Source: Pyropia yezoensis
Taxonomy: Eukaryota; Rhodophyta; Bangiophyceae; Bangiales; Bangiaceae
DNA: 64,000 nucleotides
Direction of reading: 5' to 3'
NCBI GenBank assembly: GCA_009829735.1
Contig: CM020618.1
Location: 36,680,894-36,744,893 of the forward strand
Position 1 is the first letter of the stretch; every line of letters starts with the position of its first letter. Below, one piece after another: positions 6,079-38,206 of this stretch. The notes beneath the pieces were generated by a model, which was not told the origin of the DNA, made no database searches, and worked only from the letters and a program-made list of their open reading frames with translations. The position numbers were made by a program, and so were the translations under genes.

Positions 6079-6439
6079 TGTAGCACAATAGGAACCTCTG
6101 CCCGCCCACTCTCAGGGAACACTCACCAAGGGGGATCGGCACCAATGTCACCGGGAGGCCACTGTTGCTGTCCTTGGAGCGCAAGCCACGGGACCAAGAT
6201 GGGAGCACAAAGGGGAGGGGTTAGTTGTTCTCCCAAGGCCGGCGGTGGATTCCCCGCTGGCTCCCTCGTTATAAATCCGCGGAGACACTACTAACTACCC
6301 TCCACCCCAAGATGCAAGTCCCTCTGGTCATGCGTAACTCACGGATACCGTGACCAATACGGACTCTCAAATTGGAAGTTAAGGGTTAGAAGTAGTCTCC
6401 CTATATAAGGGTCACAATACGGTCGTCTATATTGCTACA
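6079..6439 (-). repeat. Family B LTR with TATA box
   Basis: This is a 361-bp LTR with a good inverted repeat TGTAGCA..TGCTACA. TATATAG on the minus strand at 6402-6408 is a plausible TATA box. It is the 5' LTR of the B gag fragment, since PBS and gag follow. On its other side it abuts the 3' end of the C1 integrase frame, whose ORF runs about 38 bp into the LTR. B may have inserted into C1, or the junction may come from recombination. Confidence 0.85.
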
Positions 6440-9301
6440 GGCACGCTTTCGCCGGGCCAGGTCCCGTTTGCTTGGCGGTGAAGCTCGAGTACCGAGATCG
6501 CCGCTCATCCGGTACGGGTAGCCATTCACGTCTAGAAGGAATGTCCATCCGTCCGTACTCAGGATTTCATGAGGCCCGTCCGTCTTGGAGTCCAGCTTCT
6601 TCCGGGTCTTGCTGTGATTGTCCACAAAAACCCAGTCGCCACCACACAGTTCCTTGTTCTTCTCCCGGACACCCTTTTCATTGTTTCTCTTGTATCGCTC
6701 CTGGTTCTTCGCGATTGACTCCTTGACGTGTGGGAGAAGGAGCGTCAGTTGGTCCAGTAACGCGTCCTTTGCCTTGAGGCACGACTTCAGGGCAGGCTGG
6801 AGACCGTCCGGTAGTCCTTCTAGTGAGAAGTTGGTCAGCCGCCTTGGGGTGACAAGGTCTGGTGGAGCGACCCCTGTTGTCCGGTGAGCACAAGAGTTGT
6901 AGGCTAGAGTGAAGACGGCCAGGAGCTCATCCCATTCTTCTCGATGCTCCTCAACGTAGTGCCGAAGCATGTCCAGCAGGGTCCGGTTGAATCGTTCCAC
7001 CTGGCCATTCGTTTGTGGGTGATACGTCGTAGTGAACAAGTTCTTGGTACCCGTCAGGTCACAGACTCCTTGGGAAAACAGGGATGCAACCTGGGGACCG
7101 TTGTCGGTTAAGACGGAGTCCGGAGGGCCATAGGCAGCTATCAAGTACTCACATAAGGCCGACGTAACATCCAGGGCCTTGATGGTCCTGAGCGGGATTG
7201 CTCGGGTAAACTTGGAGAATCGGTCACAGCCAATGAGCAGGTATATGTTGCCACTGGATGTCTCAGGTAGGGGCCCCAGGATGTCCATGCTCAAGCTTGC
7301 AAAACGCTCCGCCGCAGGTAACAGGCAAAGCTTAGAAGTCTTCTTCCTCTGGGACAACCGGTTCCTTGCACAGGAGACACAAGCCTCTAGATGCTTGTGA
7401 ACGTCACTTGCCATGGTTTCCCAGTAGTAGTGTCGCCGCATCGAGGCATACATCCTGTTGATGCCCGGGTGTCCGGCCTGGGGAGACGAGTGATCCAGGA
7501 GGAGGATATCAGCTCGTAAGAAGCGACTATTCCGGTTAAGGTCCATCTGGTGGCGGAGCTCCAAGCCATGAGGATCCGTGAGCTGTGCCTCCAGCATCCG
7601 GTGAATGGTTACCGGCTGTTGAGTTTCAGGGGGCTCGTACAAGGGAGCATGCCAGCCACGACCGACATTCGGGAGGACGGAACAGGGTACTTCCCCCGAG
7701 ATAGTGCCCGGATCGGCTGCAGGAGTCTCCAACCGGAACATGGCGTCGGCGCAGTGGTGCTTCCTCCCTGCTCTGGTGCACACCTTGTAATTGAACTTCA
7801 AGAGGCGCAGACGCCACCGGGCGAGCCTTCCTTGGCTGCTGTCCATGCATAGCAGCCACCATAGGCTGGCGTGGTCCGTCCGGATGAGAACGTCTTGTCC
7901 TTCTGGATAAGGGCGTGACAGGAAACAGGCCGAGACGACCTCGAATCATTCGGGTTCCGTCGTGGAATAGTTCTTCTCTGCTGGAGTCAAGACGCGACTG
8001 TAGTAGCCCACCGGGAGAAAGTGCCCATCAGGTTGTTGCTGGAGTAAGGAGTACCCCACCTGGACGCCACAGGCGTCAGTCTCTAGGACAAACTGGCCCT
8101 CCCGCTTGGGTAGCGCCAATAATGGGGACGGCGTCAGGCGCTTCTTGTGCTCCTCGAAGGCAGCTGTCTGCTTCTCGTCGAACACCGGGAGTTGTGCGGG
8201 CAGCTTCTTGCTGGTGAACTTGGTCAACGGCCGGGCAATCAGGGCATAGTCCCGTACAAACCGGCGGTAGACGTTGCACATACCCAGAAAGCTCTTGAGT
8301 TCTGTCTGGGTCTTAGGCTGCCGGGCTTGTCGCAGAGCCTTGATATTCTTTTCGTTGACCCGGAGCTCCCCCGGACTCAGAACGTGCCCCAGGTATTCCA
8401 CTTCAGTCTGGAACAGGTGGCACTTCTCCGCCTTCAGGGTAACTGCAGCCTTCGACAGGAGAGCCAGAACCTGTCGGAGGTGCTCTTGGTGTTCCGCCGG
8501 GGTCTTGGAGGAGACGATAATGTCCTCTTGGTGAGCCAGACATGTCCTCCATCTTAGTCCCGACAGGATGATGTCAATGGCTCTCTGGAAAGTAGCCAGA
8601 GCATTGGTGAGGCCAAAAGAAATACGCTTGCGCCGGAATAGCCCCATATGGCCCGTGAAAGTAGTCTTGTCCTTGTCCTCATCAGCTGGAGGGATCTGCC
8701 AGTAACCGGCATTACAATCCGGTGTTGAGAAGAGAGTGGCATCACCAAGGAAGTCGATGCAATCATCCATCCGGGGCATCGAGTATACATCCTTGACCTT
8801 CATCTTGTTCACGCGCCTGTGTTCGACGTAGAAACGGAAATGACCGCCAGGTTTCGGGACGACTACCACCGGGAATGCCCACTCGCCATCGGAGAGCTCG
8901 ATTACATTCATCTTGAGCATCTTGTTAACCTGCTTCTCAATCTCATCCCGACGATGTGGTCCAGCCCGATGCGGTTGGAGGTGCACTGGCTTGGCATCCG
9001 GCTTAAGTTGAATCCGGTGTAGGGTGGCGTCCATCTTGCCGAGCTCTCCAGACCACAGGTGCAGATATTCCTGGAGAAGCTTCTCCAGAGCCTCATTCAG
9101 GTCGGGAGGAACATTTTGTTGGTTGGCATTCGGCATCCTGGGTGGTGCTTGATCGGGTTTCGGGGTAACGCCGTCAGCCTGAGCTTTTTCCGGAGGTACG
9201 CCCAGGGCGGATAGGTTGGATGCCAGTTCTTGTTGCAGGTTCAAGAGGTCCTTCTTGCTCAGGGCACGGGCAGAGCCTTGATATGGCTCTGTCAACCCAA
9301 C
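6440..9301 (-). pseudogene. Element C1 pol: RT-RNase H-integrase, inactive
   Basis: This is a Ty3/gypsy polymerase. From about 9295 it encodes an RT N-terminal region, then thumb (SFLGMCNVYRRF), RNase H (VLETDACG), and after a TGA at 7948-7946 the tether and integrase. Integrase keeps SMDILGPLP, LTDNGP and NGQVERFN, so D, D and E are present, and an upstream HPG..CxxC zinc region (GHPGINRM, CVSCARNR). The RT active site normally read as YLDD is AHQED here, so the RT is dead. No chromodomain follows the integrase; the frame runs into the B LTR. A TGA at 9304-9302 interrupts protease-RT continuity where C2 has Arg. Confidence 0.85.
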
Positions 9302-10106
9302 TCAGGTGCCCTTGGCGAGAGTTATTGGTTTCCGGCTCACGCTGACGATCAGCACGGAGAATGGGGCGTGCCTTTCCACCTTCTTTTTATGCTCATGGGC
9401 CAAATGTAGGTGCTTCGTCAGAACTTCCTTGCGTCCGTGGATCAGGCATTGACCCATTGTCCGGGTAGTGACTTGAACCTTGGTCTCCGAACGAGGAGGT
9501 AGAAGCACTGGTTTTAGGAGCGTCAAGGTAGTAGTTGGAATACGGTCCTTCTTGCGCTTGACTACGCGAACCTTGGTGTCCAGATGCTCCAGCACCGGTG
9601 ACGCAAACCTATGGATGAACTGTACCTTTCCTTCTCCTGGCAGGATACTCTTGACATGCTGCTTCTGGAAGTCCCAGCCTAGGATGAGGAGGACTGAGAG
9701 GGTCTTGACTACGAAAAAAGGGAAAAAGCATTGGTTCATTTTTGACAAAGATGGTGACAGGCAGGCGGCCAAGCGGTCGGAAAGTCTGACCCGAGGCGTC
9801 TACAATCCGGGTCATGGTACGTGCTCTTCAGGCCTGTCGGCGCCAGGCCGGAGGTAGCAGGCTCACAGTGTTCATGCTTGGTCCGGCTCCCGTGTCGACC
9901 ACCGGAGTAACAGCTTGGGGGAGGCTATCCCCCACACGCGTACGAGCATTAATCTTGAGCTCGTCCTTGCGCAGGACGAGCAAGGTACCCTTCAACAAAC
10001 AAGGTGTCCAGACGGCTACCAGCTGAGCAGGGAACTGCCGTCCTTTCACCCGGCACGCAAGGGGAGAACGGGCACAAGTACCCTGCCGTCGAATATTCGG
10101 GAACAC
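9302..10106 (-). pseudogene. Element C1 aspartic protease region
   Basis: This is a retropepsin-like region split between frames at 10106-9828 and 9815-9302. The catalytic motif VVDTGAGPSMNT is visible in the first part and the second hydrophobic motif LILGWDF in the second. It would cut the Gag-Pol polyprotein. The frameshift between the parts and the terminal TGA make this copy non-functional. C2 has the equivalent region at about 38618-39461, with DTEAG instead of DTGAG. Confidence 0.75.
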
Positions 10107-11887
10107 GCTTAGGGAGAACGCCTGCTCTACTCGTTTCCCGAGCCCGAGGATTCCTTGGAGGTCTCAGTCTCGAGGTCAAAATCCGTAGGAGCTTCTTTGG
10201 TCAGAGCCTCTGTGACGCTCTGCTAAGTTGCCACCCGAACCGCGTGTACCTGTGCCTTGTTTGTCTCGGTCGGCGCTCGCCGGTCAGCCCAGTTGACTGC
10301 CTTAGCAAACACTAGTCCTTGACGCTTGAGCTTCTCCTGGGGATCCTTAGGGATGGCCGGGCACGGGTAAGACAGGTGGTCCTTCTTCTGGCACAGCCAA
10401 CAAGACCGGAAACGCTGGTTCTTGACTTGTTCAGGGGCCACCAAGGAAGGCTGCTCCTTAGAGACAAAGCCAACCCACTTGTCACCTGACGCTACGAGAG
10501 AGGTCTCGCCAACAGCCAGTTCTGGTACTGGGTTATCGCCTCCCTTTTACTTGTCGGGTTCGGGACAAACTCGCGACAACGACTTGGGAGTCGACATCAT
10601 CGGGGCCTGGAGTGCCTTGGCTTGCTGGAATGTGCCCTGGGTGTAGGCCACCAGCTGCTTGAAGGTATGCTCTTGGTGTTTCTGGTTTTAGATCTCAGCA
10701 TCAACTTGGAGATAATCAGAAATCCCTTCCGAGAAGATCATCATGAGCCTGTCCTCAGCGTTAACGATGACACAAGCCTCGCTCATCTCCCGGACGTGGC
10801 GTGCGAAGGCCTCTCGAGTCTCTTGTATCTCCATGGTGGCCCGGTTCAGCTTTCCCTCCGCCTTGCGCAGGGAGTCGGCGTCGACGTAGTCGGACAGGGG
10901 CCAGTTGACCGCTTCCGGATAGCTACCAACGGTACGCCCGACGATGTGTCCGGCTGAGTCTGAAAGAACTTGTGCGAACCGCTGTTCTCCTTTTCTGGTC
11001 ATGAAGTTGACAAGAAGGTAGAGTGCCTTGCCCTCCTACACAGTTTTGTCGTTACATGCCCTGACGAACCGGCGCAGGAACGCAAAGAAAAGTGCCAGTT
11101 TCTTCCCAGAAAGCTTGAGATGTCCGCCGAAGCTCGACTGCATACGCCGGTTCAGGGATGCCATCTTCTTGGCCATCTTCCGGGTGTAACCTTGGTCTTG
11201 GTTCTCCAGCCCGTAGTTGCCCCAATACGTGACCTTGTTCAAGGAGGCGTCCCCCACTTGATGGGCAGGAAAGTCGAACTCGACCAGCCTGCGCCGTATG
11301 GGACCAGGGGTCGCATCCCAGTCGTATCCCTCCTCAGAGCTGGAGGAACCGGTCTAGCTGGTGGTAGAGTGACGACAACGACGCCGCCGCCTCCGGCTGC
11401 TCCGGTTACGGGACTTGAAGCTTCCCGCCCCATAGGACGCCAGGGAAGGAAGAACTTGACTAATCCCAGGAGTCGAGGCCTCAGGGGGACCCGCAGAAGC
11501 AGTCACATCGGTGCCTCTGGCACTGGTAGCGCCCACAGGAAGAGAAGTACACACCCAGCTGCCATGAGCAGATCAAGGAGGAAGCACACCCGGGGGGATC
11601 CCTGGAAGTTCAGGAATAGAACCGGCAGGAGGAAGTCGTCTGCTTCGAGCGGTCTCGAACGCCGTTGACCCCTGCGTGGATCCCACAGGAGGGACAGCTG
11701 GAGGAACCGGAGTAGGAGGTACTTCGCCGCCTGTAGACTCCAGCCCGCTACCGGGTGTCGCGCCCAGGTCTGCTTCGCCCATAAGGACAATGCCGGGTTG
11801 GACATTATCCCCGGCGGTGACAACGGATGCGTCAGGAGACGCGGGGTCTACCCCTTCGGGCACCTTCGTGCCAGGGAGGCTAGCCAT
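10107..11887 (-). pseudogene. Element C1 gag, multiply frameshifted
   Basis: This is Gag of the C family, likely starting at ATG 11887 (MASLPGTKVPEG). It is broken into several frames (11887-11573, 11257-11036, 11002-10688, 10444-10223). A CCHC-type zinc knuckle (CWLCQKKDHLSYPCP) lies near 10400. Downstream, VFAKAVNWADRRAP is shared with C2 at about 40260. The capsid part (SLNRRMQSS, LAFLRRFVRACND) also matches C2. The number of frame changes shows an old copy. Confidence 0.75.
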
Positions 11888-12073
11888 GTTAGTCTCTTGA
11901 CTTCCACAGTCCAGTTGCCTGCGTGTCAAAAGATCGCCAGACCACAAGAGAGGGGTTGGAGAGCCAGGAATGGGATTTCCGTGAACGGGTGCAAATAAAT
12001 CCCAAACCATAGATGAGAACAGAACAGGAGCAACCCAACCGCTGCTCCCAAATGTCTCTTCTCAAACACTCCA

Positions 12074-12345
12074 ATCCCTTGCTGCACCACCAAATATGTG
12101 GTATAAAACTCGATCCTATTAGGCACGTGTCAGTACCCCTCGGGGGCAGGGGACAGGTAGCACAGAAAGAGGAACTACGAGAGTGGTCTGCCTGTTGCCT
12201 CACGTGCCTGCTGGCAGAGCCAACGAATACGCCCGGTAGTGCACACGGGCAAGAGGAGAGCAAACGCGCAGTTGTCTCTTTCCCTGAGGGCGCGGGCCAA
12301 GCGCATCCACGTGGCAAGTCGTGCCTCTCGCACAGATCCGGGGGG
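12074..12345 (-). repeat. Element C1 5' LTR (partial) and PBS
   Basis: The LTR end is TTTTATACCACA on the minus strand at about 12097, followed by the PBS-like TGGTGGTGCAGCAAGGGA at about 12092-12075. Homology to the C2 LTR is clear from 12097 to about 12330 and then fades. The 5' end of this LTR appears lost beside the zinc-finger stop codon at 12359. Confidence 0.6.
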
Positions 12346-12377: not shown

Positions 12378-12846
12378 TGTGGCAGTATTGACCCCCAGGT
12401 AGGGGGGCAATACGTGCCATGCAAGGGGCGGCAGGCCACTAGCCTGACCGGTTCCTCACCCTGCATTCGGGTCCATATTCCCTAAGTTTGGGATAGTTAA
12501 CTTAGTAGTAAATCCAACTTGGATTTGAGGTTTTTCTGCATTTATCGTCTTGAATTTTCGTGTGGCCCGGTGGGCAGGTGCTGGGGTGGGAGATTCTGAG
12601 TGGCGAGATTCTGAGTGGACCCTGGGGGGATAAGGGGAGGGACAGCGGGGCTTGGCCCTGCGTCCCCGTCCCGACCAAGAAACTGTTGGACCACACACCA
12701 TCCTCTTGTTTGTCCGTGGGGGGTTTGCCCCACAACAGGGACAGAGTGTGTGCGACTTGCACTTCTTCCGGTTCCCCCGACACGGGAGGCAGCCCTAGCA
12801 CACCGCCCCAACTTGAGTGCCGTGTGTGCTAGTGGTTTTTGCCACA
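12378..12846 (+). repeat. D3 5' LTR
   Basis: This is a 469-bp family D LTR, TGTGGCAG to TGCCACA, followed after 2 bp by the PBS. Confidence 0.92.
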
Positions 12847-12848
12847 TT

Positions 12849-12866
12849 TGGTGGAGCAGCAGGGGA
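12849..12866 (+). other. Primer-binding site of D3
   Basis: TGGTGGAGCAGCAGGGGA is identical to the sites in A and F. Confidence 0.8.
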
Positions 12867-12941
12867 CAGAGGTGAACTTTACCTCCGGGTGCACCCGGGT
12901 GTAGGGGGCCCTCTGTCTCAGAGGAACGGTGGTCTTGGACT

Positions 12942-13380
12942 GTGTCGTGTGGATCGTTAGCCAACACGGCTGGATCGGACCTCCCGACGTTCGGGAAACT
13001 CTCCGGTGACGACTTTACTCCGGCGCCTTTGAATACTCGCCAGACACAGGGTGTACCTGGGGTCGCGGAGGTGCTAGAGGCACTCCAGCCAGCAGGGCCG
13101 TGGGTATCGGTGCGGGCGGTATGCCACCCCGACCCAGTCGGGTGTTCACCCTGAGAGTCTTCCTCGGACCGGTGGTTCGCACTTCGGCCACCGGGTGGTA
13201 CACTCAAAGGGAACGTCCCAAGGTGAGAGGACTGTCCCCGCGAGATCCACTCGGGTTGGATTCAACTTCGGCATAGAGCCGTCGCCAACTAGGCGGGTGG
13301 AGGACGGCGGACCTTCACTCGTCGGTGATGGGCTCGAGCCTGTGACAGAGGTCGTAGCAAGTTGCTACCCCCGCCACCCT
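12942..13380 (+). pseudogene. D3 gag remnant
   Basis: Homologous to the D1 Gag N-terminus, but the ATG of D1 (NMASSD) is ACG here (NTAGSD), and the frame shifts near 13080. A second fragment at 13195-13380 matches the Gag region SQGERTVPAGSTRVG of D1 and D2. It ends at the internal deletion, after which pol sequence begins. Confidence 0.75.
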
Positions 13381-13398
13381 CAAAGAAAGTATCTTTGA

Positions 13399-16300
13399 TC
13401 GGGAGCCAAGTTCGGCTATATCGACCAACATGAGGGACCGGCAGTAGCGGTCACCCTCAACGCGGGCGCGAGTAGCGACCCGAAGTCCGGAAAGGAGAAG
13501 CACCAAGCCAAGTTGGCCGCCTCTCCTCGTCCCCATGTGAACATGGAGGGTGTCCCCCCCAGGTTGAGGGTTCAAGTTGAACGCCTCTTGGACCAATATC
13601 ACAAGCTGTGGGATGGTCAATTGGGACTCATGAGAGCCACCCAACACCGGATCGAGTTGAAGCCCGGTGCACCCCCTACACGCCAACAACCGTATAGGGG
13701 AGGACCTCGTTCAAGGGCCCTCGTTAAGGAGCAAGTTGCTCGCATGGAGGCCCTCGATGTGATCGAGGCCAGCAACGCCGAGTGGGCGAGTCCGGTGGTT
13801 ATCGTCCCCAAAGTTGATGGGACCCCCCGGTTCTGTATCGACTACCGTAAGCTCAACGAGAGCACGGTGAAGGAAAGTTATCCCCTACCTAGGATGGACG
13901 ACTGTCTGGACTCTCTGGGGGAGGCAAACGTGTTCTCTACCCTGGACTGTAACGCGGGGTACTGGCAAATTCCCATTGCCCCGGAGGACAGGCATAAAAC
14001 TACCTTTACCTGTCACTGTGGTACCTACCAGTGCAAGCGCCTACCGTTTGGTCTGTGTAACGCGCCGGCAACTTTCCAGCGCGCTATGGACATGATTCTG
14101 GCCGGAGTACGGTGGCAGATCTGTCTTGTGTACCTAGACGATATCATTGTGTTCTCCCGAAGTCCGGAGGAACACTTTGGCCATCTTGGCCAGGTGTTCA
14201 AGCTACTTGCTGACGCCGGTGTGTCACTGAAGGCGAGTAAGTGCCACCTCTTTACTCAAGAGGTGGAGTACTTGGGACATGTTGTCCATCCGGGGCGTCT
14301 CAGTGTTAACGAGAAGAACTTGAGGGCCATTCGTAAGGCTCAGTACCCCCGGACCCAGACCCAGATGAGGAGCTTCCTCGGGATGTGTAACGTGTACCGA
14401 CGTTTCACCAAGGGCTTCGCTAAGGTGGCGAAGCCGTTGAATGAGCTAGTGAGCTCAACGCTACCGAAGAACCTGCCTCCCCCAAGTCGGGTGGAGCAGG
14501 AATCCTTTGAGACTCTTCGGGACCTTCTGCTGAAGCCCCCCATCTCGGCTTTTCCTAGGTTGGGAGGCCACTACATCCTGGATGTGGACGCTAGCTACGA
14601 CCAACTGGGTTGTGTGTTGCTTCAGCAGCAGCCGGACAAGGAGTACTTGCCGGTGGGGTACTTTAGTAAGGGGCTGAACTCGGCCGAGAAGAACTACGGA
14701 GTCACCGAGTTGGAAGGGCTCGCAGTGGTGTGGTCGGTGACGTCACTTCGTCACTACCTGGAGGGTGAGAAGTTCCTCATCCGCTGTGACCACCGCGCGT
14801 TGCAGTTCATCTTTAAGACGGACTGTACGAACACTCGTCTCAATCGGTGGAGGGTGCGACTGGCACCCTTCAACTTTGACATTGAGTACCGACCTGGCAG
14901 GCAACATGCCCTTGCCGACGGCCTCTCTCGGGTACCTACCGAGGGGCTGGACACTAACCCAGTCGATGAGGACATCCCCATCGTGGGGGTAGTCACGCGC
15001 TCGGGTCAGGCGTTGAACCCCGAGGCGCCAGGGAACAAGAAGTACTTGCCCCTGTCCCTGGACGAGGTGGTGAAGGCCCAGGCCGAGGATCCCTTCTGCA
15101 AGTCGCAGAGAGATACACTGGATACAGTGGTAGAGACGCGTTTCTTTCTGGGAGACGATGGCCTCCTCATGAGGAGGGGGGTATTCCAGGGGACCGAACA
15201 ACTTGTCGTCCCCGCATCCCTCAAGGACAGTATCCTTGAGAGGGAGCACAACGCTCCCACGGGTGGACACCTGGGGTCTAGTAAACTGTACCAGACCCTG
15301 AGGACCAGGTACTACTGGCCGTCCATGGTGGTGGACATCTACAGTTGGGTGGCTGCCTGCACAAGTTGTGCACAGAATCGTCTGATGGAACGGCGGCCTA
15401 GTACGGCTATGCTATTGTTCCCGGCCAAGGAGCCCTTCGCCGCGTTGGCGATGGACATCCTTGGGCCACTGCCAGTGACCGAGGAGGGCAACCAGTACCT
15501 CCTGGTCATCTGTGACCGCTTCACGAAACTTACGCGTGCGATCCCACTGGCAGAGATCACGGCCATGTCGGTCGTGTCAGCCTTCCTAGATCACTGGGTT
15601 GCCGCGTATGACATCCCGGATAGTACACTATCGGACAATGGACCGCAATTTGCGTCTGTACTGTTTCAGGGAGTGCTGGATATGTTGGGGATTAAGGCAA
15701 ACTATGCCACCCCCTACCACCCACAAACTAATGGGCAGGTGGAGCGCTTCAACAAAACTATTGTTAGGCAGCTGCGCCACTATGTGAGTGAGCACGTGAA
15801 GACGTGGGACCAATTCATTTCTATTCTTACTACCGCCTACAATTCGCAGGTTCACTCATCTACAGGGGAAGTACCCCTCGCTTTTGTGACCCCCCGTCGC
15901 GTGCGGTCTATTGCCGTGCGGCGGTCGCTCCCAACTAGGGAGGATGGTGGCAGTACGCCTACTCCTACTGAGAGTAAGGCGGAGTTCGCCGCTAGGCTTG
16001 AAAACCTCATCCCTAAAGTCAGGGCTGAGATGGACAAAGCACAAAAGCGCTACAAGCGTACCTTTGACAAAAAGGTGCGCAATGCTAAACATGTCCCCGA
16101 GCAGGGTGACTGGGTGCTGGTACACTCGCACACCCCAACTAGGGGTAAGCTGGTATTCGAGACGAAGGGGCCGTACCAGGTCCTTCGTACTGATGGGCGG
16201 CGCTTCACCATCGAAAGTGACGATGGGGTCCGCACAGTGAACGGATAGGACGTGGTCAAAGTTGCACCACCGCCTGCAGGAGACCCAGCTTGGGCGCGTG

Positions 16301-16545
16301 CGTTGGAATCGTGGCGCCTCCCCTCACTGCCTGCGGCCAAACAGGGCCCACAGGAGTACGTGTTCGATAAGTTCATCGACCACGGATGGGATGAAGACAC
16401 TGACCGCCTCATGTTGAGGGTGCGTTGGTTTGGCTACAAAGCCAAGGATGATACGTGGGAGTATGTGGAGGACCTTCCCGCTGAGAAGGTCCGGGCGTAC
16501 TGTGCCCGGAATGAGATAGACCCTAACAGCCCTCCCTCAACGTGA
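13399..16545 (+). pseudogene. D3 pol: RT, RNase H, integrase, chromodomain
   Basis: This is the best-preserved pol in the window. The frame is open from 13399 (911 codons from 13513) to TAG 16246-16248. RT shows [30 protein letters not shown] and the active site LVYLDDIIVFS. RNase H shows ILDVDAS and TELEGLAVV. Integrase has an HHCC region (EHNAPTGGHLG..CTSCAQNR) and catalytic blocks MDILGPLP, LSDNGPQF and NGQVERFN. After the TAG the same frame continues for 98 codons and holds a chromodomain (YVFDKFIDH, RVRWFGYKAKDDTWEYVEDL), which in chromoviruses guides integration to marked chromatin. Gag and protease are deleted upstream and one stop separates the chromodomain, so it is annotated as a pseudogene. 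Confidence 0.92.
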
Positions 16546-16656
16546 GGGATGGCCGAGCAACAGTGCCAAGAGAGTGCTTCAAGTCGAAGTGGTACGCAGA
16601 GTGGCTTTTAACTACAGCCCTAACCCTCACACTCTCAAAACAAAGGCAGCTGCCAA

Positions 16657-18771
16657 CTAGGCACGCATGCTAGACTCTCCCACTCCACGGCCCTCGCCCT
16701 CACGTGGAGGCGAGCGGCGAGACCCACGCCGATAACGGTCTCCACTTGTTTGAGGGGGCGGCCGCTCCAAGTCGGAACCGTCGCGTCCCTCACGGTCGCG
16801 CAAGTGGCGCCGACCGTGGCCACTCTTCTGCCTGGTCTTGCGCGCAAGTTTGCGACGCAGACGCTGGACAGACTCCGTCTCCGACGGGGTAGAGGACTCC
16901 GAAACGGAGTAAAACAACTCGTCTTCCGATACGGAAGGAGAGCGCCGCGAGTGTCGGCGACGACGGCGAGGAGGCGAGTATGCCCGGCTCGCGCGACGTT
17001 TGCCACGCCCAAGTGGGGCTGGCTGGGGCATAATAGCCCCAATGCGAGCCAACTCGGCTGTCATAAACTCCGCCACCGACTCGCAACTCGCGGTCGCCAC
17101 TGCAGTACGAACGCGCTCCTCAAGTTGAGGAGTCTCGGAACTCTGTAGGGTTGCGGTCGACGCGGCCAACCAGGAAATGGTGCGCACCAACGTGGTGATC
17201 ATCATCTCTGAGGTTAGAGGCGTGGGCGGCAACACCAACTTGGGGTATACCGTCAGGAGGGTGGCCCCCAAGTTGGGGGACACCGGGGTGGAAGACTCCA
17301 CGGCCACGCTGATCGGGATGTTCCCGTGAGGTTGGAAAGGAACAGGAGGAAGCGGAGGGGCCCGCCGAGGTGGCGGTACCCGGGTATAACTGCGACCCCG
17401 ACTTGGGGCCCCCGCAGTAGGTTGAGTAATATGGTCATCATATGAGGGCACAGCCATAACTATGGGCTTGTCCGGGGGTGGCGCAGTGTGGCGATCCACC
17501 CCCGGGGCATACGGGTAGTCCCCGATGCCCAACCCCTCTCGTAGGACCACACGGCCGTCGTGAAGTTCACGAGCGACCCACACGAACTGGCGAAGTACGC
17601 CGTCGTCCTTGGGCCCACGAGTGGGGCGGCGCAACTTGTGCTCAATGCTCTCCCACTCGATAAACTTATGGAGCCGGAGCATCTCCTCAAGTAGAGTGAG
17701 TTGTCCTGATGAGCACCCTTCAGCAACTAGCTGAGGGGTGAGCTGTTCCAAACCTTGGATGAGCCGGAGGGGGAGATGCCAGAGCATCCCCCGCCGCTGA
17801 ACACAGGACACCCAGGTCGACATGACCTCGAGGAGCCACTGGGTGGCCAACATGGCCCACACCAGGTGATCAGGGGCAGCCGTCAACATGACGGAGCCGA
17901 AGTGGTCAAGCAACCATGGCAACAACGCCGGGAACCCGTAGGGGACCTCAACTTGAGGCCACCACTCGGGCTTCTCCGGATAGTACTGCTCCTTACTGGC
18001 AGCAGACTGTTGAGGAAACTCAAGTTGAGCCGAGGTCACCAAGTAGGGACCTCGCCGGAAGTCTTTCTCCATCCTCACATCAAAGTGATGAGTGTGCGAA
18101 TCGGCCTCGTGAAGGTACGGGGGGCGAGTTGCCACCGCGTCCCAAGTAAAGTTCGGCAAGTCGCCGGGACCCGGGATAGTTCCCCCGCGGTCCACCATGG
18201 CCTTGGCACGCTGAACGTCCTCAACCTCCTCATCGTCCAGGAAGGCAAACTGGTCCGTCCTGAAGCCAGCAGGGAACCCGACCCTACGGGGATACTTCTC
18301 CCGTAGGCGGTCCCATACCCGCCCCATCGCTGCGCCAAGTCGGCCACAGCGAAGAACAGTCAGCCCCTCCTCATAGAGAGGCCAAGCGGGGTAAAACCAC
18401 CGCCCCAAGGCCTCACGCGGGACAACTTGTCCCGCCTCCGGGGGAGACCCCGCCGTCAACCCAAAGCCGGGTGACGCGGGAGTCCCATCCCCCGGAGCGA
18501 TTGCGGAGCCCCCGCCGGAAGTCCCGGCGGGTGCTGCCCCGTAGGAGGTGTCCTCCAAGCGCTCGTCAAGAGAGTCCGTCTCCACTCCCAGAGTCGCCAT
18601 GGCTCTCCCCAAGTTGTGGAGAGACGCTCTGGCTATCGCAGCACGAGACCCGCCTCGAGTTGAGGGGGACTCGGATCGTGGGTATACGGGTGGCATCCCC
18701 AGCGTGGGGCGGCCCAGTGGAAGGTGAAGGGGAGGTGGTGGTGATGGTGAAGTGTGAACTGAGGAGAGCAA
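16657..18771 (-). CDS. Antisense ORF of element D3, 704 aa, unknown function
   Basis: An intact 704-codon ORF on the strand opposite to gag-pol fills the space between the chromodomain and the 3' LTR. Its stop is 111 bp from the pol stop (convergent) and its ATG is 168 bp inside the 3' LTR. Visible features: a Ser/Pro-rich N-terminus to about 120; a conserved-looking core at 121-430 with GRWFYPAW (123-130), RLREKYPRR (155-163), PEWWPQVEVPYG (268-279), a Trp-rich helical stretch (284-320) and RQFVWVAREL (394-403); a Pro-rich linker; a helical segment around 515-580; and an Arg/Ser-rich tail with SVSEDE. The same core motifs in the same order and similar spacing occur in the antisense ORF of element F. 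No known domain is recognised. An Arg/Ser tail suggests RNA binding or nuclear localisation, which is inference. Confidence 0.75.
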   Translation of the reverse strand: MLSSVHTSPSPPPPLHLPLGRPTLGMPPVYPRSESPSTRGGSRAAIARASLHNLGRAMATLGVETDSLDERLEDTSYGAAPAGTSGGGSAIAPGDGTPASPGFGLTAGSPPEAGQVVPREALGRWFYPAWPLYEEGLTVLRCGRLGAAMGRVWDRLREKYPRRVGFPAGFRTDQFAFLDDEEVEDVQRAKAMVDRGGTIPGPGDLPNFTWDAVATRPPYLHEADSHTHHFDVRMEKDFRRGPYLVTSAQLEFPQQSAASKEQYYPEKPEWWPQVEVPYGFPALLPWLLDHFGSVMLTAAPDHLVWAMLATQWLLEVMSTWVSCVQRRGMLWHLPLRLIQGLEQLTPQLVAEGCSSGQLTLLEEMLRLHKFIEWESIEHKLRRPTRGPKDDGVLRQFVWVARELHDGRVVLREGLGIGDYPYAPGVDRHTAPPPDKPIVMAVPSYDDHITQPTAGAPSRGRSYTRVPPPRRAPPLPPVPFQPHGNIPISVAVESSTPVSPNLGATLLTVYPKLVLPPTPLTSEMMITTLVRTISWLAASTATLQSSETPQLEERVRTAVATASCESVAEFMTAELARIGAIMPQPAPLGRGKRRASRAYSPPRRRRRHSRRSPSVSEDELFYSVSESSTPSETESVQRLRRKLARKTRQKSGHGRRHLRDREGRDGSDLERPPPQTSGDRYRRGSRRSPPREGEGRGVGESSMRA

Positions 18772-18925
18772 GCTGCCGAGTGGGCAAGCTTGAGGAGAGG
18801 GGCGGTCAACGTGACCGCCTCCACATCCGCGTTACGTACTCAAGGGGGGGACAGCAAGTCGCGCCCCCAACGCCGAGACGTGCGTTTACGCACCCCCTCA
18901 CAGGGCCGACCGGGTCGGTCGGAAC

Positions 18926-18939
18926 TGAGAAGAGGGGAG
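18926..18939 (+). other. Polypurine tract of D3
   Basis: The purine run GAGAAGAGGGGAG lies immediately before the 3' LTR (TGTGGCAG at 18940). This is the expected position for the plus-strand primer of reverse transcription. Confidence 0.75.
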
Positions 18940-19408
18940 TGTGGCAGTATTGACCCCCAGGTAGGGGGGCAATACGTGCCATGCAAGGGGCGACAGGCCA
19001 CTGGCCTGATCCGTTCCTCCCCCTGCATTTGGGTCCATATTCCCTAAGTTTGGGATAGTTAACTTAGTAGTAAATCCAACTTGGACTTGAGGTTTTTCTG
19101 CATTTATCGTCTTGAATTTTCGTGTGGCCCGGTGGGCAGGTGCTGGGGTGGGAGATTCTGAGTGGCGAGATTCTGAGTGGACCCTGGGGGGATAAGGGGA
19201 GGGACAGCGGGGCTTGGCCCTGCGTCCCCGTCCCGACCAAGAAACTGTTGGACCACACACCATCCTCTTGTTTGTCCGTGGGGGGTTTGCCCCACAACAG
19301 GGACAGAGTGTGTGCGACTTGCACTTCTTCCGGTTCCCCCGACACGGGAGGCAGCCCTAGCACACCGCCCCAACTTGGGTGCCGTGTGTGCTAGTGGTTT
19401 TTGCCTCA
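18940..19408 (+). repeat. D3 3' LTR
   Basis: This is a 469-bp LTR. The terminal TGCCACA has one change to TGCCTCA, and the TSD GCGCC follows directly. Any antisense promoter for the 704-aa ORF would lie here or in the 168 bp between LTR and ATG. Confidence 0.9.
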
Positions 19409-27209: not shown

Positions 27210-27353
27210 CCATGAGGCCGATGATATGGCGACCCCCTCTCTGTGGGCCTATGAACCCGCCACTCGTCGCTATTTGGCCAGCCGGGTTAGGGGTTAGTGG
27301 GTAGGGGTTATGGTTAGGGGGTTTGGGGTTAGGGGTTAGGGGTTAGGGTTTTT
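27210..27353. repeat. Junction with interstitial telomere-like array
   Basis: Bases 27284-27353 are a degenerate array of about nine 7-bp units close to TTAGGGG (GGGGTTA). They lie directly between the inverted D LTR flank and the broken C2 integrase frame. Bases 27210-27283 are unassigned. Confidence 0.7.
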
Positions 27354-28734
27354 GTCAGGATGTCCGGCCTGGGGAGACGAGTGCTCCAGGCGGAGGATGT
27401 CAGCTTGTAGACTCCGGGGTACATAGACTTGAGTTGCCCCATTGAAGGGTGACACCCGTATCAGGAGTCCATCCGTAGACTCGGAGAAGCGACTATTCCA
27501 ATTCAGGTCTATCTGGTCGCGAAGCTCCAAGCAATGAGGATCCGTAAGCTGTGCCTCCAGCATCCGGTGAAAAGCTACCATTTGGTGAGCTTCAGGTGTC
27601 TCATACAAGTGAGCATGCCAGCCACGTCCGACATTCGGGAGGATAATACAAAGTATTTCCTCCGGGATAGGGTCTGTGTCGGCTGCAGGAGTCTCCAACC
27701 GGGACATGGTGTCGGCGCGGTGGTGCTTCCTCCCTGCCCTGGTGCACATCTTGTATTTGAATTCCGAAAGGCGTAGACGCCACCGGGCGATCCTTCCTTG
27801 GCTGCTGTCCATGCATAGCAGCCTCCTTAAGCTGGCGTGGTCCGTCCGGATAAGAAAATCTTGTCCTTCCAGATAGGGGCGTGACAGGTAGAAAGCCCAG
27901 ACGACCGCCAAGCATTCGTGCTCCGTTGTGGAAAAGTTCTTCTCGGCGGGAGTCAGGACGCGACTGTAGTAGCCTATCGGGAGGAAGTGCCCATCAGGTT
28001 GTTGCTGGAGTAGAGAGCACCCTACCTGGACTCCGCAGGCATCAGTCTCTAGGACAAACTGGCCCTCCCGCTTGGGTAACACCAATCCTGGAGTCGTGGT
28101 CAGGCGCTTCCTTAGCTCCTCGAAGGCAGCTGTCTGCTTCTCGTCGAACACCGGGAGTTGTGCGGAGAGCTTCTTGCTGGTGAGCTTGGTCAACGGCGGG
28201 GCAATCAGGGCATAGTCCCGCAAAAACCGGCGGTAGACGTTGCACATACCCAGAAAGCTTTTGAGTTCCGTCTGGGTCTTAGTTTGCCGGGCTTGCCGAA
28301 GAGCCTTGATATTCTTTTCGTTGACCCGGAGCTCCCCCGGACTCAGCACGTGCCCCAGGTACTCCACTTCCGTCTCAAGCAGGTGGCACTTCTCGGCCTT
28401 TAGGATAACTTCAGCCTTGGACAGGAGAGCCAGAACCTCTCGAAGGTGCTCTAGGTGTTCCGCTGGGGTCTTGGAGAAAACGATGATGTCGTCCAGGTAG
28501 ACCAAACATGTTCTCCACCCTTTCTCAATCTCATCCCGGCGATGTAGTCCAGCCCGGTACGGTTGCAGGTGCACTGGATTGGCATCTGGCTTGAGTTGAA
28601 TCCGGTGTACGGTGGCGTCCATCTTGCCCAGCTCTCCAGACCACAGGTGCCGATATTCCTGGAGAAGCTTCTCCAGTGCCTCCTTCAGGTCGGGAGGGAC
28701 ATTTTCTTGGTTGACATTCGGCTTCCGGGGTGGT
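27354..28734 (-). pseudogene. Element C2 pol, 3' part, with internal RT deletion
   Basis: This continues the C2 pol across the F insertion. The reading frame is open for about 460 codons but lacks roughly 110 residues compared with C1: HRRDEIEK is followed directly by GWRTCLVYLDDIIVFSKTP, so RT motifs before the active site are gone in frame. RNase H (VLETDACGVQ, YYSRVL) and the start of the integrase zinc region (HSSPQAGHP) follow. It breaks at 27354 beside the telomere-like array. The matching 5' part lies at 38613 onward. Confidence 0.85.
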
Positions 28735-29140
28735 TGTAGCATATCCGCCCTCTGCACCGAGTTCCGGTATTGTCTGGCAAGTAGCCCCCCTGACTGGTGG
28801 CCCCAACCTTGTCGGTATGGGCCCACTTGTGGCCCGCCTTTTGGGGGACTACTTTTGTTTTGTATTGTTTATCTGTCCTTGCCTTGGAGGGATCATGTAT
28901 GTTAATTGCCATGCTCGTAGCGATCGGCCATCCGGCCTCGGCTCGGTCGCTTGACCAGCATGTTATTTCGCCCTTACCTGCGACGTGGGGGCTCGCCACC
29001 GCCGTTCGGCCGGCGTGCTCCCCATCGAACGTCTGAGAGCTGAAGGATTTTCTTCTTTGCCTTTACGGTAAAAGCTGTCTCTTTGCCTTCCGGGCGTCGG
29101 TCGGTCCCATATCCTTTTATTGGTCAGCACTTATTCCACA
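28735..29140 (+). repeat. F 5' LTR
   Basis: This is a 406-bp LTR, TGTAGCAT to TTATTCCACA. It is nearly identical to the 3' copy at 38207-38612. Confidence 0.95.
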
Positions 29141-29141
29141 T

Positions 29142-29159
29142 TGGTGGAGCAGCAGGGGA
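29142..29159 (+). other. Primer-binding site of F
   Basis: TGGTGGAGCAGCAGGGGA lies 1 bp after the LTR, the same site as in A and D3. Confidence 0.8.
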
Positions 29160-29360
29160 TTACTGCTCGTGTGCGGTGCTGCCGTACGCTCGTACGTGTT
29201 CCTTGGTGCCTTGTGGCAGCGTGTGTGAAGATCTCTCGATCGGGTGTTGCTGGGCGACTACACCGATTGGTGAAGGCTGGACGGCGCCGGGCGTCGTGCC
29301 ACGAGGACCTTTTGGTCGGTGACGCGGGGCGCGCCGACACACGTTACGCCGGGTTGCGAT

Positions 29361-31109
29361 ATGGCTTCGGGAGCTCCTGATGACGCTCGGCGCTCGAAGG
29401 GTAAGGGGATCGCCCTGCCTTCGGGTTACACGCCACCAGGCGGAGGGAGCGGAACAAGCTGCTTTTCGGCCCCTGAAAATACCCCCCCCAACCCTGACTC
29501 GCAGGATGTCACTACCTCCAGGTTGGAGAGCTTGAAGGCGGTGGTGGAGGCACTTCGCGACAGTCTTGAGGCCCAAGAAGTTACCAAAAAGGCGTTGGAG
29601 GAGTCTAACACCAGACTGGCAACTACTCTTGAGGAGCTGAGAAAGCCACCCTCAAATGAGACGTCTCGTCAACGGACGACGTCGAACCGACAGCTTATGG
29701 GCAAGATGGACCTGAAGCCGAAGACCCAAGCGGCCTCTCAGGCAAGTCTGCCCATTGGCAATCTTCAGTCGAAGAATCGTCGGATCCGCGCGCTTGAGCG
29801 CCAGGTCGAGGACCTTAAAGCAAAGGCCACGACTAAGCGTCATAACGCACGGGAGGTAGACGCATCATCCGCTGATGATGGGCTGTCATCCGACAAGTCA
29901 TCATCCTCATCTTCCTCGTCTTCGGACGAAACTGATGACGGTGGCCGGGACCCCACCCCACCGTCAAGCCCGAGCTCGTCAAGCACGGAATCCACTACGG
30001 ATAGCTCGGACGCACACCGTCGACGTGTGCGCAGGCACCGGCACCGACCCGCGCCCCACTCCGGACCCACGGAGTTGGGCGATCGTAAGATGGTCATTAG
30101 ACCTGGCAGCAGCCGCTTTAAGTCACTCTTGAACTACCGGACCTACTTCCTTCTCCGACGGAGCACTAAGTACACACCATCTATGGTGAGAGATGCAAGC
30201 AAGATGAACAAGCGTCTCGACGGCGCGTTCCAAGGACAAGAGACCTTCAACGGTGGAGACCCCCTGGGCTTCTTCACCTTCCTCACAACGTTCCGCAGAG
30301 CCTGCGATGCCGCAGGGTTGACCCACGGTCGGGCGTTCCCACTCATTGCCTTCCGACTGGCGGGAGCCGCAAAGCGCTCATTCGCTAGCGCGGTCAGCAC
30401 GATCGTTCGTGGCAAGCACTACGAACTTACCACATATGGTGAAGGAGTCAACTGGCTTCTCAAGAAGTACGCAACTCATGCCGCTTTGGCAACGGCGTAC
30501 CATGACAGCATTACGATGACCCAAATTGACACGGAGGTCCCACGCGCGTTCGGCACCCGCGTGGAAGCATCATGCGACCGCCTTTGCGGCCTCTTTTCCG
30601 CTCAAGATGTGAAAGATGTTTTCATCAACGGTCTCTCCGACCTAATCAAGCCGAACGTCCGTGTTCTGGACAGCCAGTTCCGAGATCGCCCCATGGCAGA
30701 CACGGTTGCGGTTGCCCAAGGGTTCTGGGAGGGCGCGAACCGACTGCATCCGTCAATCAAGGCCAGTCGCCCGCCCCTCATCAAGGTTAGTCAAATCGAC
30801 TCGAGCGCTGCAGCACCCCCCCCCACTCGGACGGTCGATCGACCATATGCGCCTATTAAGGCCGCTCGAACGGACACCCCGAGGCCGCGGGCTACTGACA
30901 TTTGTTACAACTGTAACGAGCCTGGGCACTTCGCCTCGCAGTGCCCAAAGCCCCGTCGTGAACGACGCCAAGCAAGAGTGATGGCACTCATTGACGACTC
31001 GGTCCGCGACCAAATCAACGCTATCGTCGAGAACGAAGTCCTCCCAGACTCGGACGAGGACGAGAGCGATGACGTTGGTGACGGGAAGGCTGACTCAAAA
31101 CACGAGTAA
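29361..31109 (+). CDS. F gag polyprotein with CCHC knuckle
   Basis: This is an intact 582-codon Gag from ATG 29361 (MASGAPDDARRSKGKG) to TAA 31107-31109. Features: a coiled-coil-like region (ESLKAVVEALRDSLEAQEV, about residues 52-110), a Ser/Asp-rich linker, an Arg/His-rich patch (VRRHRHRPAP), a capsid-like core (LGFFTFLTTFRRACDAAGL; NWLLKKYATHAALATAYH) and a CCHC zinc knuckle CYNCNEPGHFASQC near residue 515. The C-terminal tail is strongly acidic. Its product would assemble virus-like particles around the element RNA. The start is supported by position about 220 bp after the PBS. The next frame is -1 and overlaps from 31094. Confidence 0.88.
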   Translation: MASGAPDDARRSKGKGIALPSGYTPPGGGSGTSCFSAPENTPPNPDSQDVTTSRLESLKAVVEALRDSLEAQEVTKKALEESNTRLATTLEELRKPPSNETSRQRTTSNRQLMGKMDLKPKTQAASQASLPIGNLQSKNRRIRALERQVEDLKAKATTKRHNAREVDASSADDGLSSDKSSSSSSSSSDETDDGGRDPTPPSSPSSSSTESTTDSSDAHRRRVRRHRHRPAPHSGPTELGDRKMVIRPGSSRFKSLLNYRTYFLLRRSTKYTPSMVRDASKMNKRLDGAFQGQETFNGGDPLGFFTFLTTFRRACDAAGLTHGRAFPLIAFRLAGAAKRSFASAVSTIVRGKHYELTTYGEGVNWLLKKYATHAALATAYHDSITMTQIDTEVPRAFGTRVEASCDRLCGLFSAQDVKDVFINGLSDLIKPNVRVLDSQFRDRPMADTVAVAQGFWEGANRLHPSIKASRPPLIKVSQIDSSAAAPPPTRTVDRPYAPIKAARTDTPRPRATDICYNCNEPGHFASQCPKPRRERRQARVMALIDDSVRDQINAIVENEVLPDSDEDESDDVGDGKADSKHE

Positions 31110-34100
31110 GTCGAGGACCGGCGGGCAGTGTCCCCGACGCACCCTTGCCCAAACGACCCGCAAGACGTAAGATCACCAACATCCTAAGCAAAACCCATCG
31201 GCACTATGAGATCGCAGCCTGTATCGGCACTGGGCTAGCGAGTATGCGAAGCTTAAGGCCCATACTTGACACCGGGGCAGGTGTCAACCTCATCCGACCG
31301 GATTTCTTGCCGCCACATTGGCGTGATCACGCGACAACTCTGCACAATGCCCCGCACATGGTTGATGCCAATGAGCAAACGATCAACGCACCACAAGGCA
31401 TCCACCTGTTCATCGACACCGGGGGGGTTCAAGCCTTAGAACGGTTCTACGTTACCCCAAACCTGTCGGTCAAATGCATCCTCGGCACCGAGTTTGTGGA
31501 CAAGCACGTGGAGTCAATCTGGCCCCGACTCAAACGTATCGTTTGGCAATCCTCGAACGATCGTTCGACGGCTCACTCTCCCATCTTGGGCATCCAGTAC
31601 AACAATGTTATGGAACCACAATGGTCCGAAGGATCATCCAAGGTACGCGCGTGTAAGCAAGCACGAATTAACGGTAAAACCGAACAATGGATCATGGCCA
31701 GATGTGAAGTACCCGGCCTGGTTACGCTGCAGCCAAACGCACGTCTTTGCAGACACAAGTCAATGGCAATTGCCCGAGGAGTTGCAACAGTTCACCCGAA
31801 CGAACCATTCCTGGTGAAGGTGTGCAACTTTGGGCCAGACATGACCATCATCCGAAAGGGCAGCATCGTGGCGTTCGCCGAACAACACCTCGGTCAAGTA
31901 CACACGGCTCCAACGGAGAAAGATGACCCGGCGGCGCCGAAGGACGAGCAAACAAAACCGTCACTCGACGACATCGACCTTCAAGATGCGCCAGAATATG
32001 TGCATGCGCAAATCAAGACGATGCTGGCCAAACACGGCAAGATGTGGGACGGGACTCTCGGAGTCATACACGCTACTGAGCACGCCATCGTCACCCCACT
32101 AGGGGTCGCCCCCATACGAGCTCAACCATACCGAACCGGTGCGTTCAAACGGGCGATCATCGTCGACCAGATCAACAAGATGTTGAAGCTCAAGGTTATC
32201 AAACCAAGCCACAGTGACTGGGCCAGTCCCGTCGTCATTGTCCCGAAGAAGAACGGGATGGCCCTGTTCTGCGTCGATTATCGACGATTGAACAGCGTCG
32301 CCAAGAAGGATGCGTACCCACTTCCTCGTATGGAGAACTGCCTTGACTCCCTCGGAGACGCCAAGGTCTTCACGCCTCTCGACTGCACTGCCAGGTATTG
32401 GCAAATACCCCTGCGAAAGGAGGACCAAGAAAAGACTGCCTTCACGACGCACTGCGGCATCTTCGACTGGACGACAATGCCATTTGGCTTGACCAACGCG
32501 CCGGCAACTTTCCAACGAGCCCTGGATATTATCCTGTCCGGACTCGAGTGGCAATTTTGCCTAGTTTACTTAGACGACGTTATTATATTTTCGGCAACTG
32601 CCAAACAACACATCCATGATGTAGACACCGTCCTCACCCGACTTAAGAAAGCGGGCGTTACCCTCGATCTTGAGAAGTGCAAGTGGTTCTCCAACGAGGT
32701 GGAGTACCTCGGCCACAGCATAACGCCTGGCAAACTCCACGTTCTAAACAAGAACACGGAGGCGCTGCGTCACGCGACCTTCCCCAAGACCAAGACCTAA
32801 CTCAAGAGTTTCCTCGGCATGTGCCACGTCCACCGACGACTTGTAGTCGACTTCACTAAGCGAGCACGACCGCTGAACGCGTTGACAAAGAAGGAAGTCC
32901 CACCGGACTTGGCGCCACCCTCAGATGAGGAGCAGACCGCCTCCGAAGACCGCCGTGACGCCCTGGTGCACCCTCCCATCTTAGCCTTACCAAAGGCCGG
33001 ACGTCAACTGACACTGGATGTCGATGCAAGTGCGTATCAACTTGGGTGCACGCTGCTCAAATCGGACGATGACGACAACCTACAACCAGTTGGTTATTGG
33101 AGCCGAGCACTCAACACAGCAGAGCTCAACTACTCCACAGCGGAGAGAGAATGCCTAGGCATCGTGTGGGCTGTCCTAAAATTGAGGCACATTCTCGAAG
33201 GTCATCGCTTTGTGATCCGCTGGGACCACCAGAGCCTTAGCTGGATATGCAGCACTGCCGATTCAAGCGGGCGACTAATGCGATGGCGTATGCGCCTAGC
33301 GGAGTTTGACTTCGAATTCAAGTACAAGCCTGGTGCCAGTCACCACTTGCCTGATTTCCTGTCCAGAGCGGACAACAACGCAGCCACTGAACCCATCAAC
33401 GATGACATTCCATGCCTGGCGGTTGCCCAGACGGCACACGGCGTTCAAACCCATGGGTACACGGGTACGTCCGACCCGACTCCCGTCGACTACTACGATG
33501 TCATAGACAAGCAGCAATCGGATGATTTCTGCAAGTCAATCATGGACAGCATCGCCAAAGGAGGTCACAAGTCGTTCATCATTGACGACGACAACGCGCT
33601 GCGTCGCAAGACACCTTATGGAAACCAACTGGTCATACCCAAGTCGCAACAAGAAAACATCTTGAAGCTCCAACATATGGCGACCACCGCCGCTTACCCG
33701 GGCATGAACAAGATGTACTTCACCATGAGAAGAAAGTTCTACTGGCCGTCCATGATATCTGATATCCAAAGCACTATCACCAACTGCACCACTTGTGCAC
33801 AAAACCGGTTGGCGCTGCGAAAGCATACGACACCACTCACCCTGTTCCCAGCTTCGGAACCATTGACCGAATTGTCAATTGACATCCTTGGCCCGTTGCC
33901 TGCGAGTCAGAGCGGAAACCGCTTCATGTTGGTCATTACCGACCGGTTCGCCAAGCTCACCAAGTGCATAGCACTGAAGACCATCACTGCCATCTCGGTT
34001 GCATCCGCTGTTATTGAGCACTGGATCGCGTGCTACGGACCCCCGGACAAGATCTTATCCGATCAAGGCCCACAGTTCATGTCGAACTTATTCATCGCTG

Positions 34101-37563: not shown

Positions 37564-37625
37564 TCCTTAGTCGCCGCGCCGCTTGGCCACTCACAAACGC
37601 CAATCGGCGGAGCGTAGCAATGTAG

Positions 37626-37781
37626 CTGACCTTGCCGCCTTGGCCGCCCTTGCCGCCTTGGCCGCCCTTGTCGCCTTGGCCGCCCTTGTCGCCTTGGCCG
37701 CCCTTGCCGCCTTGGCCGCCCTTGCCGCCTTGGCCGCACTTGCCGCCTTGGCCACCCTTGCCACCTTGACGCCTTGACCGC
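37626..37781. repeat. Minisatellite inside element F
   Basis: About 8 tandem units of an 18-bp repeat, CTTGCCGCCTTGGCCGCC on the plus strand, with a CTTGTCGCC variant. It lies between the antisense ORF start and the 3' LTR, so it would be in the leader of an antisense transcript. On the minus strand it could read as Gly-Gly-Lys/Gln repeats, but not in frame with the antisense ORF. Confidence 0.8.
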
Positions 37782-38206
37782 TCGTGCCGCCCTGGCCGTC
37801 TACTGGGCAACAGTCACCGTAGCCTGCGGCTTCTTAGTGCCAAACGGCGAAGCGTAGCACCGTGGCCAACTGTCCGTCAACCCGCCGCGACCAACAATCG
37901 GGGCGTCAACCCGGCGAACGACGACCTGTCGGCAGACGGGCGGTCCACCGACCAACGTCGAGACGCACCACGGTACCAGTGTGCCGGGCACCTATATGGC
38001 ACCGCCAACTGGCCCTCCGGCCAAGCACACACCACGCGAGCGCCCCACGGCCAGATGGCCCGGTGCCTCTTGAAGCACCGAATGCGCTGACGCGACCCCT
38101 CGCCACCGCACGATGGCGGGCGACCACGCAACTAGCCGCCACAACTGGCTGCAAGCTGCACCTGATCGTATCTCGCCGGGACGGCTCGAAGCTTGCAACG
38201 GGGGTA
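37782..38206. other. F 3' untranslated region
   Basis: No ORF of note. It ends in a short purine-rich stretch (AACGGGGGTA) just before the LTR, the probable polypurine tract. Confidence 0.5.

Follow-up and report, generated by a model that had tools for sequence, protein, structure and literature searches.

A putative old antisense gene family shared by divergent chromodomain Ty3/gypsy retrotransposons of the red alga Pyropia yezoensis

In the genome of Pyropia yezoensis, an antisense gene is present in at least four divergent families of retrotransposons, designated D3, F, G and H, in the same orientation and at the same place relative to pol, and the families carrying the antisense protein share about 23-30% protein identity with each other. 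Comparison of copies showed that the antisense frame is protein-coding and was under purifying selection. Judged from their sequences, the D3, F, G and H frames are a genuine, old and selected gene family, and the protein probably acts for the element. The explanation that we favor, with moderate confidence, is a single old accessory gene in several chromodomain Ty3/gypsy lineages that serves as a nuclear regulator of its own element. The analysis started from a stretch of 64,000 nucleotides (the window; G000:C1:36680894-36744893, contig CM020618.1 of assembly GCA_009829735.1) and was extended to the whole assembly, in which 107,475,971 bases in 11 contigs were searched.

Within the window, D3 is a complete Ty3/gypsy insertion (12378-19408, + strand) with LTRs at 12378-12846 and 18940-19408 that are 98% identical and have TG...CA ends, and it is flanked by a 5-bp target duplication (GCGCC). 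This copy is without most of gag and the protease region. Its pol (13513-16248, +) encodes reverse transcriptase (RT), RNase H and integrase, and a stop at 16248 precedes the chromodomain stretch, which follows in frame (16249-16545, +); the chromodomain match itself (16249-16542; PF00385, E 2.8e-5, 24.4 bits) is slightly below the Pfam cut-off of 25.1. A polypurine tract (18927-18939, +) adjoins the 3' LTR. Element F is likewise a complete Ty3/gypsy insertion (28735-38612, +; LTRs 28735-29140 and 38207-38612) with a 5-bp target duplication (GTGGT), and it contains gag (29319-31109, +) and a pol spanning 31145-35629 (+) in two frames (31145-32800 and 32819-35629), with a chromodomain (Pfam E 5.9e-10). 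The sequence TTGGTGGAGCAGCAGGGGA, directly inside the 5' LTR, is common to D3 and F and looks like a putative primer-binding site. F is inserted into a further pol/gag lineage, E (6401-12283 and 27336-42222, -), with its pol at 6401-9295 and its 3' part disrupted in the window. A genome search with the integrase part of E gave at least 177 matching stretches (best 89 of 5,039 candidates), and other E copies among the matches listed were 85-87% identical across this part. The window also contains a host-like gene of 1,627 aa (47623-52506, -), overlapping a direct repeat, with matches to Malectin (6.1e-74) and IPT/TIG, and with PA14 and glucose/sorbosone dehydrogenase matches slightly under the cut-off.

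The initial annotation had described one very long ORF antisense to gag-pol in each of the two elements. In D3, the 704-aa frame (16657-18771, -), which begins at a TTG, was found open as described, and it comprises 724 codons from stop to stop. The ATG at 18600, where the outside homologue P0001 begins as well, is the likely start and gives an ORF of 647 aa (16657-18600, -) whose frame is open upstream to 18771 and beyond. The D3 antisense ORF and pol converge tail to tail, with 111 bp between the antisense stop and the end of pol. In F, the long ORF held for other copies, in which 646 codons are open, but not for the window copy, in which the frame is split by a single stop into an N-terminal part (36562-37563, -; likely ATG at 37524) and a C-terminal part (35626-36534, -) in one phase, the stop of the latter overlapping the pol stop by 4 bp. 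Upstream of the likely ATG, the 3' LTR edge is reached after 339 bp in D3 and 682 bp in F. The reported location, 3' of pol with its chromodomain and ahead of the 3' LTR, was borne out in both elements, the frame also preceding the polypurine tract, and D3 and F, each with both LTRs, show the aORF-3R layout (opposite strand, between pol and 3' LTR).

A chance origin of these frames was examined with 2,000 first-order Markov sequences of the window's own pol-to-3' LTR interval for each element. The longest frame was at most 435 codons (D3) and 574 codons (F), and frames of 724 and 646 codons were each reached in 0 of 2,000, ruling out a chance ORF for both; the split 334-codon F piece on its own was reached in 165 of 2,000 and is not unusual. 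A nested insertion was not supported, because the target duplications bracket the entire D3 and F elements. Recent capture of a host gene, or a nested transposon, is very improbable as the source of the ORF: PMC7264820 records gene capture in other transposable element families, but here families at about 23-30% protein identity have the ORF at the same place, the duplications enclose the whole of D3 and F, and no Pfam domain was found above chance. Derivation from a gag or pol gene was also rejected for the window elements, as no BLASTP match was obtained at E 0.1 with 10 of their gag/pol pieces, a set drawn from these elements and not from G or H.

Similarity between the D3 and F proteins, proposed earlier from shared motifs, is present over a core. 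BLASTP aligned the two proteins at 1e-7 with 23% identity over 166 aa, and with the low-complexity filter the match remained at 2.9e-6, with 40.4 bits versus 22.7 or fewer for 40 shuffles. The profile-profile comparison of D3 and F was weak (E 7e-4, probability 26%), the D3 alignment being without diversity. The profiles of F and G matched at E 8.6e-18 (probability 99), and H links D3 and F (H-D3 2e-11; H-F 2e-10). The direct comparison of D3 with G (BLASTP E 0.002, 31.2 bits versus 26.6 for shuffles; profile probability 5%) is unconvincing alone. Among the proposed landmarks, PxWW and VLR were in register in the D3-F BLASTP alignment while RQ was off by one residue, and a count by eye confirmed 124 and 116 residues from WW to RQ. 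The N-terminal R(L/I)R(E/D)...FR landmark did not hold, since MAFFT aligned RLREKYP of D3 with a different segment of F, RLRRLWP. Overall, the conserved core is marked by PxWW...VLR, and the C-terminal end is Arg/Ser-rich in D3 and F; in G a similar Arg/Ser run, identified by eye, is more internal.

Domain and structure searches with the antisense proteins were negative. Pfam gave no match above chance at E 1 for D3 and the two F parts, no match at E 5 for six antisense proteins (PF04195 being absent), and for five further antisense proteins only one phage family at E 0.23, again without PF04195. A PDB sequence search gave nothing above chance. AlphaFold2 models lacked confidence (mean pLDDT 36.0 for A6, 546 aa, and 38.8 for A7, 333 aa), so that a fold match from such models would be meaningless. 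Nucleic-acid binding thus finds no support in Pfam, PDB sequences or the models. In viral contigs, 6 and 11 pattern stretches were found, and by tblastn none was a relative.

To describe the genome-wide extent of the family, matches were counted at E 0.001 with fragments included. The D3 protein search, in which the best 63 of 12,997 candidates were scored, gave 56 stop-free frames and 7 with one stop, and the F search gave 86 matches for the N-terminal part and 82 for the C-terminal part, many with stops. H gave 117 matches, in subfamilies from 98% to 37% identity, and the G core gave 66, extending to F copies and to four more frames at 27-30%. Related elements lacking an open antisense frame, named in the initial annotation as evidence against a gene, thus do occur among the best-listed D3 copies and in F, and open copies coexist with them. 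When D3 copies were selected by the 3' junction rather than by score, the antisense frame was open in 2 of 2. Searches of the protein collection gave one relative for D3, 12 for the N-terminal part of F, including P0011 from Pyropia vietnamensis, and three for the H-led profile.

Placement in G and H was judged by the facing pol alone, and in D3 and F by pol plus both LTRs. The antisense ORF is tail to tail with pol in 12 of 14 G and H loci (L049-L051, L063, L064 and L066-L072); at L065 and L073 there was no pol match within the fetched stretch. In the G locus L049, gag is followed by a pol of 1,564 aa and then by an antisense ORF of 1,061 aa, and the antisense ORF of L050 is 992 aa. A chromodomain was matched in G pol (Pfam E 0.0017; PDB chromodomain 3.8e-6), and among the five H loci scanned, H pol matches in L063, L067, L069 and L070 had Pfam E values of 1.9e-4 to 0.023, below the cut-off. 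The pol facing the L066 ORF has a clear chromodomain (2.7e-15), but is of another type than H pol: it shares about 26% identity with H pol and includes a Tf2-like SH3, while the pol of L067 is 86% identical to H pol. The antisense ORFs of L066 and L067 are nearly identical (dN 0.017, dS 0.033), and this mismatch of antisense ORF and pol suggests recombination or a nested element. In G pol (L049:1237-5931, +), residues 1415-1484, after the chromodomain, matched the Pfam family Dam, DNA N-6-adenine methyltransferase (PF05869; E 1.2e-6, 28.7 bits, cut-off 28.1). Dam domains are known from DIRS elements, and one in a Ty3/gypsy pol looks unusual.

Selection on the antisense frame was assessed by dN/dS with our own Nei-Gojobori script; of the dS values, several exceed 1 and are rough. 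For F, 12 sequences were picked for long open frames, L052 was excluded for a frameshift, and 12 pairs among the remaining 11 were compared. Between subfamilies dN/dS was 0.13 (dS 0.52), 0.17 and 0.21 over 613-624 codons, and 0.28 in a pair with the partly frameshifted L058; within a subfamily it was 0.26-0.94. The changes by codon position were 52/40/181 (L010-L019), an excess at third positions. The five other frames of F contained 10-63 stops per pair with dN/dS of 0.27-2.99, the lowest always being that of the opposite-strand frame sharing third positions. Constraint in F spans the core and the tail and is strongest at about alignment columns 161-400, and the pattern in H is more even. For H, with loci hand-chosen from the H genome match list, dN/dS between four subfamilies was 0.22-0.43 in 23 of 23 pairs (dS 1.13-1.83), and the five within-subfamily pairs (of 28 in total) gave 0.36, 0.36, 0.51, 0.52 and 0.54. 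H pol from the same loci gave 0.06-0.17 in 13 of 15 pairs and 0.39 and 0.64 in the two closest pairs, indicating weaker constraint on the antisense protein than on pol. Antisense dN tracked pol dN in H, the one family compared in this way, with a Spearman coefficient of 0.83 (10 non-independent pairs from 5 copies).

In D3, the pooled dN/dS was 0.14 (28 pairs of 8 copies), and the shared changes were 24 synonymous versus 3 not; these copies (L001-L008) were the best protein scorers, a choice that lowers dN. Over 10 copies, two of them added by the 3' junction, the pooled value was 0.19, and pairs above 1 included the two junction-picked copies against each other (1.20) and L004-L075 (1.59). 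The D3 pol-strand frames had 14-27 stops per copy and dN/dS of 1.18, 0.26 and 3.59, versus 0.14 for the antisense frame, which rules out that the latter is the shadow of a sense gene. The opposite-strand frame sharing third positions, with dN/dS of 0.26-0.37 and full of stops, is the expected shadow, and the antisense frame has the lowest dN/dS of the six frames and is the sole stop-free one. A dN/dS near 1, named in the initial annotation as evidence against a gene, was not found between F or H subfamilies or in pooled D3, where the values were well below 1, but a few very young pairs were near or above 1. High values within subfamilies are expected of young copies, so recent selection is not demonstrable copy by copy; low values between subfamilies together with high values in the youngest pairs indicate that the frame was selected through the history of these families and that the newest copies drift.

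These data also bear on the idea that the antisense RNA, rather than a protein, is what matters, pairing with genomic RNA and tuning silencing while the open frame is incidental. Antisense or small-RNA regulation has been raised for such loci (PMC7264820), but an RNA role alone predicts no codon phase. The clustering of changes at third codon positions and dN/dS far under 1 in three lineages therefore oppose RNA as the sole role, and we regard this reading as improbable.

Complete antisense proteins are 546-647 aa long in H, F and D3 and about 1,000 aa in G. By raw composition, the C-terminal 100 residues are 28-40% Arg plus Ser in D3 and F; the share is 20% in G1, with a net charge of +56, and 13-20% in H. 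As the Arg/Ser tail is weak in H, a tail function common to the families is uncertain. An envelope-like or structural protein, such as a second gag or a capsid cofactor, is a quite unlikely identity for the product. The interval from pol to the 3' LTR is the usual place of env, and F3 and H7 each have one stretch above a hydropathy of 1.6 (1.78 and 2.13, respectively), but the strand is opposite to that of env, 8 of 10 antisense proteins are without a 19-residue stretch above this value, and no similarity to the 10 window gag/pol pieces was found by BLASTP as described above. Neither the sense orientation nor, in 8 of 10 proteins, the transmembrane-like stretch of a retroviral-type Env is present.

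D-type 3' ends, defined as the polypurine tract plus the LTR start with at most 2 mismatches, were found at 1,135 genome places (577 + 558), and the reversed pattern at 0. The deletion junction of D3 in the gag/protease region was found in 81 genome copies. A second D junction, at which a loss of about 2 kb takes out RT, RNase H and the integrase core, was found in 63 copies. The reversed pattern gave 0 in each case, and the sequence of one copy, L076, shows the second deletion directly. Both junctions were present in 61 of the 81 copies. At least 61 D copies are thus without most of gag, the protease region, RT, RNase H and the integrase core, and the antisense region is kept in those inspected. 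For three of the 63 best-listed D3 ORFs, the distance to the first junction is 1,234 bp, matching the doubly deleted form; two of these ORFs are stop-free and the third has one stop. When the 81 junctions were compared with 100 listed of the 1,135 3' ends, at least five pairs lay within 9 kb; the junction-to-3'-end distance was 5,546 bp in the window copy, 3,531-3,532 bp in three cases, which is 1-2 bp from the length expected with the whole ORF region, and 2,212 bp in one shorter case. Conceivably, the antisense protein is a selectable cargo and the doubly deleted D derivatives persist as an 'antisense-gene satellite', with a protein that regulates or hijacks the full-length family; we consider this doubtful, and retention in the deleted copies could reflect mere youth.

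Another alternative is that the protein works with the chromodomain integrase as a factor acting on cDNA, the integrase complex or the chromatin target. The antisense ORF faces integrase in 12 of 14 loci, chromodomain matches, some below the Pfam cut-off, were found in F, D3, G and the five H loci scanned, and the antisense protein evolves in step with pol in H. The ORF is kept, however, in three copies without the RT and integrase core, although such copies may depend on others, and we hold this alternative to be unlikely.

Antisense ORFs between pol and the 3' LTR have already been described in plant Tat-lineage elements and one fungal element, with no agreed function (PMC7264820, PMC11963269). 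PMC11963269 reports an antisense ORF with TRP28 in 97% of clusters of recently active Retand elements. Like the ORFs described here, the Retand/Tat TRP28 (PF04195) gene is long, runs antisense to gag-pol and lies between pol and the 3' LTR, but Retand belongs to flowering plants and is not a chromovirus lineage, while the present elements have chromodomain matches (F, D3, G and H) and their proteins have no PF04195 match (at E 5 for six proteins and at E 1 for others). The gene23 product of Grande in maize is described in PMC7264820 as nuclear and as having its own antisense promoter. Grande gene23 and the RIRE2 antisense ORF occupy the same place and strand as the ORFs here, in a different host and element lineage, and are likened to them by layout alone, as is the antisense ORF between pol and the 3' LTR of Boty from Botrytis, outside plants (PMC7264820). 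HBZ and APH-2 of HTLV-1 and -2 are encoded by an antisense gene whose promoter lies in the 3' LTR (PMC7264820) and are nuclear proteins (PMC11963269). HTLV-1 and -2 are infectious retroviruses, unlike the elements here, and the likeness to HBZ and APH-2 is by layout alone. HBZ and APH-2 are also much smaller than the present proteins. The layout places the D3/F family among antisense additional ORFs, and both the protein and the element type are outside the TRP28 family. The antisense proteins look like a family unrelated to the plant and fungal ones, Grande, RIRE2 and Boty being set apart by description. By title and abstract, in a literature search that was thin on subscription journals, no report of antisense ORFs in red-algal elements was found.

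For the favored reading of an old accessory gene, we propose that the antisense gene was inherited along with pol rather than gained repeatedly, and that its transcription would start from a promoter within or close to the 3' LTR. The product would be soluble, probably nuclear and nucleic-acid-binding, and may regulate the transcription, RNA handling or nuclear entry of its own element, in a mode of action like that of the Grande or HTLV antisense proteins, with no kinship to them implied. A nuclear regulatory role is the most likely one by tail composition and by analogy to Grande and HTLV (PMC7264820, PMC11963269). The presence of a separate family, with purifying selection measured in three lineages, points to LTR elements having reached this layout more than once, and the purifying selection suggests that the protein, not antisense RNA alone, is kept. 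With more than 1,000 3' ends of D in a 107-Mb genome, and with derivatives that keep the antisense region in the copies inspected, the role of this protein would be testable in P. yezoensis.
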